Both the position numbers and the translations under genes were made by a program. From Candidatus Omnitrophota bacterium (lineage in GTDB: Bacteria; Omnitrophota; Gorgyraeia; Gygaellales; Profunditerraquicolaceae), in NCBI GenBank assembly GCA_030691865.1, contig JAUYDL010000044.1:1-46670 (forward strand): DNA of 46,670 nt, given 5' to 3'. Below the pieces are notes generated by a model, which saw only the letters and a list, made by a program, of their open reading frames with translations, did not search any database and was not told the origin of the DNA. Below, in pieces: positions 3,184 to 6,236 of this stretch. Each line of letters begins with the position of its first letter. Position 1 is the first letter of the stretch.

Positions 3184-3531
3184 TTATCCTTTTATTTTTT
3201 CAACCAATTTTTTAAATGCATTATTGTCTCTTACTGCTAAATCCGCCAAAATCTTACGGTCCAGAGTAATCTTGGATTTCTTGAGCCCATTCATAAATAC
3301 GCTATAAGAGATCCCCACCTCTCGGCAAGCTGCGTTAATCCGGGCAATCCAGAGACTGCGGAATTCACGCTTCTTATTCCGGCGATCCCGGTAAGCATAC
3401 CTGAGCGCATGCACCAATACTCTTTTGGCCTGCTGATATTGCTTGCTACGATCACCCCAGAACCCTTTAGCCTGTCTGAGAACCTTCTTCTTTTTTTTAC
3501 GTGTTGCTACACTGTGTTTAGCCTTTGCCAT
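3184..3531 (-). CDS. rplT: 50S ribosomal protein L20
   Basis: [68 protein letters not shown]; start trimmed to MAKAKHS. Confidence 0.97.
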
Positions 3532-3548
3532 TATTATTCTCCTCATTT

Positions 3549-3622: not shown

Positions 3623-3823
3623 TTACCCATAAGGTAACATAGATTTGATGAATCTTACTTCTTTTTTACCAGCCAGCGTCCTGCGTCTCCTCAAGCTTCT
3701 TATCCTTTTTGTTTTCTTAGACGAAGCTAAATGGCTTTTTCCACCAGGGGAATACTTAACTTTACCTTTTTTGGTAATTTTAAAACGTTTAGCTACCCCG
3801 CGTTTTGTTTTTAACTTTCCCAT
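3623..3823 (-). CDS. rpmI: 50S ribosomal protein L35
   Basis: MGKLKTKRGVAKRFKITKKGKVKYSPGGKSHLASSKKTKRIRSLRR. Confidence 0.96.
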   Translation of the reverse strand: MGKLKTKRGVAKRFKITKKGKVKYSPGGKSHLASSKKTKRIRSLRRRRTLAGKKEVRFIKSMLPYG

Positions 3824-3865: not shown

Positions 3866-3935
3866 AGAGTAGTTAGAATATAGTAGGTAGAATTTAGGGA
3901 AAACCTACATTCTATCTACTACCTACTATCTACTG
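3866..3935. repeat. Imperfect palindrome in infC-rpmI gap
   Basis: TAGTAGGTAG (3881-3890) and CTACCTACTA (3919-3928) within a longer imperfect inverted repeat agtagttag...ctatctact. Confidence 0.6.
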
Positions 3936-3950
3936 GTTCTTTATTATACT

Positions 3951-4457
3951 TCACTTTGGGGCAATTACAAAGGACATAATTCTACCTTCTAGTGACGGTG
4001 TCTTTTCTACCTGCCCATCATTCTGCGTATCAAGAATAAATTTATCTAAAACCTTTCTTCCTAGATCTAAATGTTCCATCTGCCTGCCGCGAAAGAAAAG
4101 GTTAACTTTAACTTTGTCTTTTTTCTTTAAAAAACTTATTACCTGCTTAACCTTGGTTTCGAAATCATGTTCGTCGATATTGGGCTTAAGCCGGATTTCC
4201 TTAAGGCGGCCCTGTTTCTGATGTTTTTTAGATTCACGCTCTTTTTTCTCCAGGTCATATCTAAATTTACTGTACTCAATAATCCGGCAAACCGGCGGAG
4301 CAGCCGCTGGGGCAACCTCCACTAAATCCAACTCATACTGATTGGCAATCTCTAGAGCCCTCTGCACAGACATTACCCCTAACTGGCTTCCATCGTGACC
4401 AATAACCCGAACTTGCGGTGAACTGATTCTGTCGTTAATACGCGTGAACTTTTTTAT
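3951..4457 (-). CDS. infC: Translation initiation factor IF-3, apparent AUA start
   Basis: Frame extends upstream of the tracked ATG (4373) as I-KKFTRINDRISSPQVRVIGHDGSQLGVMSVQRALEIA...; GGAGG 5 nt upstream of ATA at 4455-4457; follows thrS. Confidence 0.9.
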   Translation of the reverse strand: MKKFTRINDRISSPQVRVIGHDGSQLGVMSVQRALEIANQYELDLVEVAPAAAPPVCRIIEYSKFRYDLEKKERESKKHQKQGRLKEIRLKPNIDEHDFETKVKQVISFLKKKDKVKVNLFFRGRQMEHLDLGRKVLDKFILDTQNDGQVEKTPSLEGRIMSFVIAPK

Positions 4458-4472
4458 GGCTTCCTCCCTCTT

Positions 4473-6236
4473 TTATTTATGTTCCTGAATCTGGTTAATT
4501 AAATTCCCTATAAATTCCTCCAAAACAACTGCACCCTGATCCCCGCTTCCTTTTTTACGGACACTCACCTGCTGCTGTTTGACCTCCCGATCCCCTAAAA
4601 TTAAACAATAAGGAATTTTATTTATCTCGGCATTGCGAATCTTTTTATCTAAAGTTTCATTGCGCAGATCCATATCCACGCGGATGTTATGGCTTTCTAA
4701 TTTGGTTTTTACGCCTTGAGCATAAACAAGCACCGTTTCTTTAATCGGAATTAATAAAACTTGTGTCGGGCTTAACCATAAAGGAAGCTCTCCCTTGTAA
4801 TGTTCAATAAGGGCGCCGATAAAACGCTCCAGGCTGCCTAACAAAACCCGATGCAGCATAATCGGCTGCCTTTCTTTACCCGCATCATCAATATAAGCTA
4901 AATTAAATCTTTTGGGAAGAGCGAAATCGCATTGAATAGTCGCGCACTGCCATGTCCTTTTAAGCGCATCTTTCAATTTGATATCAATTTTCGGGCCATA
5001 AAATGCGCCGTCTCCTACATTAACATCATATTTTAACCCTTTTTCTTTTAATGCCGCTTCTAAAGCTTCAGTCGCTCTCTGCCAATCCTCATCCGAACCA
5101 ATAGATTTTTCCGGCCGCGTGCTAAGCTCGATTCCTACCGTGTCAAACCCAAAAACTTTCATGGTATCAAACACAAAATCAATAATTGCCTTAATTTCCT
5201 GGGATAGTTGTTCCGGCAAACAAAAGATATGCGCATCATCTTGAGTAAACCCGCGCACCCGCAATAGCCCATGCAAAACACCAGCTTTTTCCCGGCGATA
5301 AACTGTACCTAGCTCAAACAGGCGTATGGGTAAATCTTTGTAACTTCTGGTTTTTGATTTATAAATCAAAATGTGACCCGGGCAATTCATCGGTCTTAAA
5401 ACAAACTCTCCGCCACGATTCTGGGCGGGCCCGCCAATGTTTTTGGCGGGTTTATCATCCCCTATATTTAAGAAGTACATATTCTCTCGATAATAATCAT
5501 AATGTCCGCTGGTCTTCCAGAGGCCAACATCCATAATATGCGGAGTAATGACCATATCGTAGCCGCGTTTTAGATGCTCCTTTTTTTCATAATCTTCAAT
5601 AATGGTACGTAAAAGCGCTCCCTTGGGATGATAAAAGACTAATCCGGCGCCCGCCTCCTCATGATAAATATCAAAGAACTCCAATGCGGGACCCAGTTTT
5701 CTGTGGTCGCGTAGCTTGACTTCCTCTAAGTTTTTTAAATATTCATCTAATTCTTTTTGGGTCTCAAAACAAGTACCATAAATCCTTTGCAGCATAGGAT
5801 TAGTTTCAATCCCATGCCAATATGCCCCGGCCACCGATAACAATTTAAAAGCCTTAATCTGGCCGGTTGATTTTATATGCGGCCCTCGACAAAGATCTAA
5901 AAAAACTTTGCCGGTTTTATAAATAGAGATTGCTTGGTTCGGTAAAGCTTCGATAAGTTGGACCTTATAATCTTCATTTAATTTCTTAAATAACCCTATG
6001 GCCTTTATTTTGTCTAGCTCCTCACGCAGAAACGGATCATCGCGGGCGATAATTTTCTGCATTATTTTTTCAATTGCTAATAAGTCAGCGTCGGTAAACG
6101 GAGCCTGTTTATCAAAATCATAATAAAAACCATCCTCAATTGCCGGGCCAATGGCTAATTTTGTCTGTGGCCATAGCTCCTTTACCGCTTCGGCCATCAC
6201 GTGAGAACAGGAATGACGTAATACATCTAAATTCAT
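4473..6236 (-). CDS. thrS: Threonyl-tRNA synthetase, no N-terminal TGS domain
   Basis: MNLDVLRHSCSHVMAEAVKELWP..., class II motifs (RPMNCPGHILIYK, RVRGFTQDDAHIFC); 587 aa. Confidence 0.95.
   Translation of the reverse strand: MNLDVLRHSCSHVMAEAVKELWPQTKLAIGPAIEDGFYYDFDKQAPFTDADLLAIEKIMQKIIARDDPFLREELDKIKAIGLFKKLNEDYKVQLIEALPNQAISIYKTGKVFLDLCRGPHIKSTGQIKAFKLLSVAGAYWHGIETNPMLQRIYGTCFETQKELDEYLKNLEEVKLRDHRKLGPALEFFDIYHEEAGAGLVFYHPKGALLRTIIEDYEKKEHLKRGYDMVITPHIMDVGLWKTSGHYDYYRENMYFLNIGDDKPAKNIGGPAQNRGGEFVLRPMNCPGHILIYKSKTRSYKDLPIRLFELGTVYRREKAGVLHGLLRVRGFTQDDAHIFCLPEQLSQEIKAIIDFVFDTMKVFGFDTVGIELSTRPEKSIGSDEDWQRATEALEAALKEKGLKYDVNVGDGAFYGPKIDIKLKDALKRTWQCATIQCDFALPKRFNLAYIDDAGKERQPIMLHRVLLGSLERFIGALIEHYKGELPLWLSPTQVLLIPIKETVLVYAQGVKTKLESHNIRVDMDLRNETLDKKIRNAEINKIPYCLILGDREVKQQQVSVRKKGSGDQGAVVLEEFIGNLINQIQEHK

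Follow-up and report, generated by a model that had tools for sequence, protein, structure and literature searches.

Where does translation of infC, the gene for initiation factor IF3, begin in Candidatus Omnitrophota? We examined this question at a locus within a 46,670-nucleotide stretch of DNA (hereafter the window) from a Candidatus Omnitrophota metagenome-assembled draft genome of 1.22 Mb in 78 contigs, which is ~92% complete and carries one infC. The nearest matches to its IF3 come from Candidatus Omnitrophota MAGs, at 99% identity. The window has the gene order thrS-infC-rpmI-rplT (Table 1), and thrS adjoins infC in 141 of the 150 loci compared. An Rfam scan of the window returned tRNAs only and no L20 leader. 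We also observed, in the gap between infC and rpmI (window positions 3875-3934), a long imperfect hairpin that has 23-nt arms, folds with a z-score of −3.7 and matches nothing in Rfam; it could be a regulatory element for rpmI-rplT or a repeat element.

Table 1. Features of the infC locus and of a second gene with an AUA start (positions refer to the window unless a contig is given)
Feature	Coordinates	Strand	Evidence and remarks
infC (IF3, 168 aa from ATA)	3951..4457	minus	IF3_N + IF3_C (Pfam), TIGR00168; stop TGA 3951-3953
infC ATA, putative start codon	4455..4457	minus	sole well-placed start between in-frame stop and conserved N-terminus
infC Shine-Dalgarno GGGAGG	4463..4468	minus	read directly; 5 nt spacing to ATA
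First in-frame ATG of infC	4371..4373	minus	inside IF3_N; ORF list compared with Pfam match
thrS	4473..6236	minus	TIGR00418, 714.9 bits; its TAA closes the infC frame
rpmI (L35)	3623..3823	minus	Pfam Ribosomal_L35p; downstream operon gene
rplT (L20)	3184..3546	minus	Pfam Ribosomal_L20; ORF as listed, MAKAK start slightly inside; downstream operon gene
rsfS (ribosome silencing factor)	G000 contig C4:415-768 (L250), outside window		TIGR00090, E = 2.7e−25

The original prediction held that the conserved N-terminus of IF3 is encoded 5′ of the first in-frame ATG and that an ATA preceded by a Shine-Dalgarno (SD) sequence is the only well-placed initiator. A re-reading of the sequence confirmed its infC coordinates, codon and SD spacing, and both parts of the claim held. 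From the thrS stop, the codons run TAA, AAG AGG GAG GAA GCC, ATA, and then AAA AAG TTC ACG CGT ATT AAC GAC AGA ATC. The thrS TAA (4473-4475) lies in the infC frame with only five codons between it and the ATA, and an ATG, GTG or TTG start further upstream is therefore impossible; direct reading found none of these codons from this stop to the conserved RIND motif. The NCBIfam infC model TIGR00168 matches residues 5-168 of the ATA-started product (205 bits, E = 6.6e−61), as expected of a full-length IF3, and the Pfam IF3_N match spans residues 7-75 (E = 3e−29). When the product is aligned with a solved bacterial IF3 (5me0_Y), chain residue 5 pairs with query residue 6, so that the ATA falls where the initiator Met has been removed from that chain. 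No RNA structure masking the infC start was found (fold z = 0.57).

Three other start sites could be proposed for IF3, namely the ATT of the RIN motif, the internal ATG at 4373 and, in some relatives, a GTG further upstream. The ATG opens a clean 140-aa ORF, as a standard gene finder would call it, but this ORF loses 28 residues of IF3 and its start would cut into IF3_N. The Ile codon of RIN is free to vary and often encodes Val or Thr in relatives. To survey canonical codons upstream of infC, we used 78 distinct family sequences, obtained with a slightly different duplicate filter from that of the start-codon count below. No canonical codon precedes the start in 30 of them, and in 40 the sole canonical codon is an in-frame GTG three codons upstream (−9); the remaining 8 have other canonical candidates, mostly distant. 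This GTG is not a plausible start because it sits inside the SD sequence (AGGTG), and it is missing from the window genome. A further observation against upstream starts is a TAG directly 5′ of the infC ATT in one order-mate. Taken together, we consider any of these alternative starts very improbable.

We mapped the infC start position by tblastn over fetched loci and then removed duplicates. At the family level, the mapping gave 105 ATA and 7 ATT loci before duplicate removal, and 73 ATA, 7 ATT and no ATC among 80 distinct genes, in line with the rare start that the original prediction had proposed looking for in relatives. The start codon is conserved in the family beyond the drift of Ile codons: at six conserved internal Ile positions in these genes, ATT occurs 201 times, ATC 182 times and ATA 56 times (chi-square 224 for start versus internal codons, a value that does not convert to a true probability, as the sequences are related). 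A purine-rich SD-like motif stands 4-9 nt before the start in every distinct infC relative. Although the window comes from a metagenome-assembled draft in 78 contigs, where an ATG might have been misread or misassembled as ATA, the same codon occurs at the same position in independent assemblies of many species. This conservation argues against both chance and sequencing error and refutes the latter, to which we attach practically no probability. A start of infC at AUA is thus strongly supported by the anatomy of the gene and the family-wide comparison.

Outside the family, order-mates have 6 ATA, 9 ATT and 1 ATC at the infC start, and the rest of the class has 31 ATT and 7 ATC among 40 genes. 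Other Omnitrophota classes have a shifted infC N-terminus and mixed starts, including canonical TTG. A Bacillota sample yielded 17 ATT, 8 ATC and 2 ATA among 30, and the E. coli control, read by the same procedure, gave ATT. Given AUH codons across the class and in Bacillota, and the predominance of ATA in the family, the comparison indicates that a third-base near-cognate AUH start of infC is widespread and that this Omnitrophota family has fixed the AUA form. Two loci (L195, L200) carry an ATG two codons 5′ of the AUH position and look like reversions.

What might such a start do? The explanation that we favor, and regard as very probable, is that the AUA-started infC is under feedback by IF3 through a start codon that IF3 itself rejects. 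The AUA would be read with fMet by the ordinary initiator tRNA, whose anticodon CAU mismatches at the third base, and the strong SD sequence would hold the start in place. IF3 destabilizes initiation complexes at start codons other than AUG, GUG and UUG, so that infC would be repressed when IF3 is high and relieved when IF3 is low. This would be the known infC loop with AUA replacing the AUU of E. coli. We infer this autocontrol by homology: gene, operon order and class of start codon all match those of E. coli, and the start codon has been conserved while other Ile codons drifted. We rejected a reassignment of AUA as unnecessary, since the codon is used in the usual way for Ile inside genes. 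In vitro, IF3 excludes weak third-base pairs and tolerates non-Watson-Crick pairs there (PMC10158994). At the C-domain positions checked for codon discrimination (E. coli numbering), the window protein keeps R131, R133 and R168 but has Lys for R99, R112 and R147, Ser for R116 and Phe for R129, changes in basic residues that could alter the strength of codon discrimination.

Alternatively, the sole role of the AUA could be to hold IF3 at a low level or couple infC to thrS translation, with no IF3 feedback. Weak starts do lower output, as AUA and AUU reporters in S. aureus give ~10% of AUG (PMC13009471), and the position of the infC SD, immediately after the thrS stop, would allow translational coupling. 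However, infC encodes the very factor that rejects codons of this kind, and AUH starts are conserved within the class and between phyla. In E. coli, infC starts with AUU and is repressed by IF3 (PMC5472188), and the AUU is required for autocontrol, a change to AUG abolishing it according to Butler 1987 as cited in that paper. An effect on output or coupling alone thus seems unlikely, and IF3 feedback remains our preferred reading.

In the initiator tRNA, the three G:C pairs of the anticodon stem have been described as highly conserved and monitored by IF3 (PMC7949028). The draft assembly of the window genome yielded no initiator tRNA; the features below were read in relatives. In five relatives, the initiator tRNA has anticodon CAU and C1:A72, with A29:U41 replacing G29:C41; its anticodon stem reads A29:U41, G30:C40 and G31:C39 (five loci) and not three G:C. 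None of the ten genomes examined contains the canonical initiator 13-mer GGGCTCATAACCC. Since A29:U41 also occurs in two genomes with AUU-started infC (G102, G080), the variant does not explain the choice of AUA. The elongator-type tRNA-Met(CAT) at three loci, among them G000 C65:19405-19480, has a D-loop with ..TGATA.. and the T-loop TTTAAAT, which suggests A19:U56 replacing the near-universal G19:C56; another tRNA (L358) has G19 with C56.

We also searched for other AUA starts in the genome. Genome-wide, an SD sequence precedes 2.6% of ATA codons, against 10.5% of ATG codons and ~2% of codons of most other kinds. As there is no genome-wide excess of SD-preceded ATA codons, AUA is not a general start. 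Two ATA candidates from this SD scan, L283 (minus strand, 3593) and L313 (plus strand, 2138), were rejected, a later ATG opening a typical N-terminus in each. Of the 1.22 Mb genome, 955 kb was scanned by coding potential for ORFs with a coding or homologous part preceding the first canonical codon. Only infC and rsfS emerged as genes with clear family homology starting 5′ of that codon; the remaining ORFs had a plausible downstream ATG or, by eye, looked broken or spurious.

The rsfS of the window genome (G000) has no canonical codon from its upstream stop to residue 37. Its ATA lies 7 nt downstream of AGGAG and falls, in an ungapped alignment, at the TTG that starts rsfS in E. coli. Across 70 family genomes, the rsfS start position holds ATA in 63, ATC in 4, ACA in 2 and ACT in 1, and 62 of the 70 have no canonical codon upstream. 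In one of the ACA cases (L426), an ATA lies one codon before the start position, and in two family genomes a TAA stands directly 5′ of the rsfS ATA. The SD sequences of rsfS are weaker and more variable than those of infC, and none of the listed motifs was present in nine loci. Since ATA also dominates one of the internal Ile columns of rsfS, the argument for this gene depends not on codon bias but on the absence of canonical starts and on where the stops lie. Two rsfS loci (L446, L449) have an ATG two codons 5′ of the AUH position and are, like the two infC loci above, apparent reversions. We found no relevant literature on unusual start codons in Omnitrophota or in rsfS, and the putative AUA start of rsfS is apparently unreported.

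RsfS and IF3 both block ribosomal subunit joining, which makes a shared IF3-sensitive control of the two genes attractive. It is conceivable, though we lean slightly against it, that IF3 and RsfS, both with a fixed AUA start in this family, form an IF3-sensitive regulon in which low IF3 would let both rise. Within such a regulon, rsfS would add a new natural gene with an AUA start, and it may have been tuned in concert with the initiator tRNA altered in relatives. If IF3 does hold rsfS through its AUA, rare starts would link two factors that oppose subunit association.

These data extend the rare-start design of infC to an uncultured phylum, in which AUA is fixed at the family level and AUU or AUC is found in sister groups. 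Such a family and its sisters form a natural set of variants in which to ask what favors one near-cognate codon over another. Gene finders limited to ATG, GTG and TTG are expected to truncate IF3 in these genomes and to truncate RsfS or miss it altogether.

Near-cognate starts of this kind have several precedents. The infC of E. coli shares with that of the window the order thrS-infC-rpmI-rplT, a third-base near-cognate start and a strong SD sequence, but uses AUU and not AUA, and its control is proven whereas that in the window genome is inferred. An AUA start of infC has been described before: in S. aureus it was mapped by Ribo-Ret (retapamulin ribosome profiling), and autoregulation was proposed (PMC13009471). 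Staphylococcus aureus likewise combines the AUA codon with an SD sequence but belongs to another phylum, while in Omnitrophota AUA is conserved throughout an entire uncultured family whose relatives have AUU and AUC. In Streptomyces, infC starts with ATC, and sigR, with a GTC start, is also repressed by IF3 (PMC5472188). These are rare starts under IF3 control with codons that differ from the AUA of the window, and sigR demonstrates that such a link to IF3 is not confined to infC; sigR, however, encodes a sigma factor, whereas the Omnitrophota rsfS encodes a ribosome factor whose control by IF3 is hypothetical. Finally, ccpN of S. aureus, also AUA-started (PMC13009471), and pcnB of E. coli (AUU) have conserved near-cognate starts described as limiting expression (PMC13009471 and its reference 73) but, unlike infC, do not encode translation factors and form no feedback loop.
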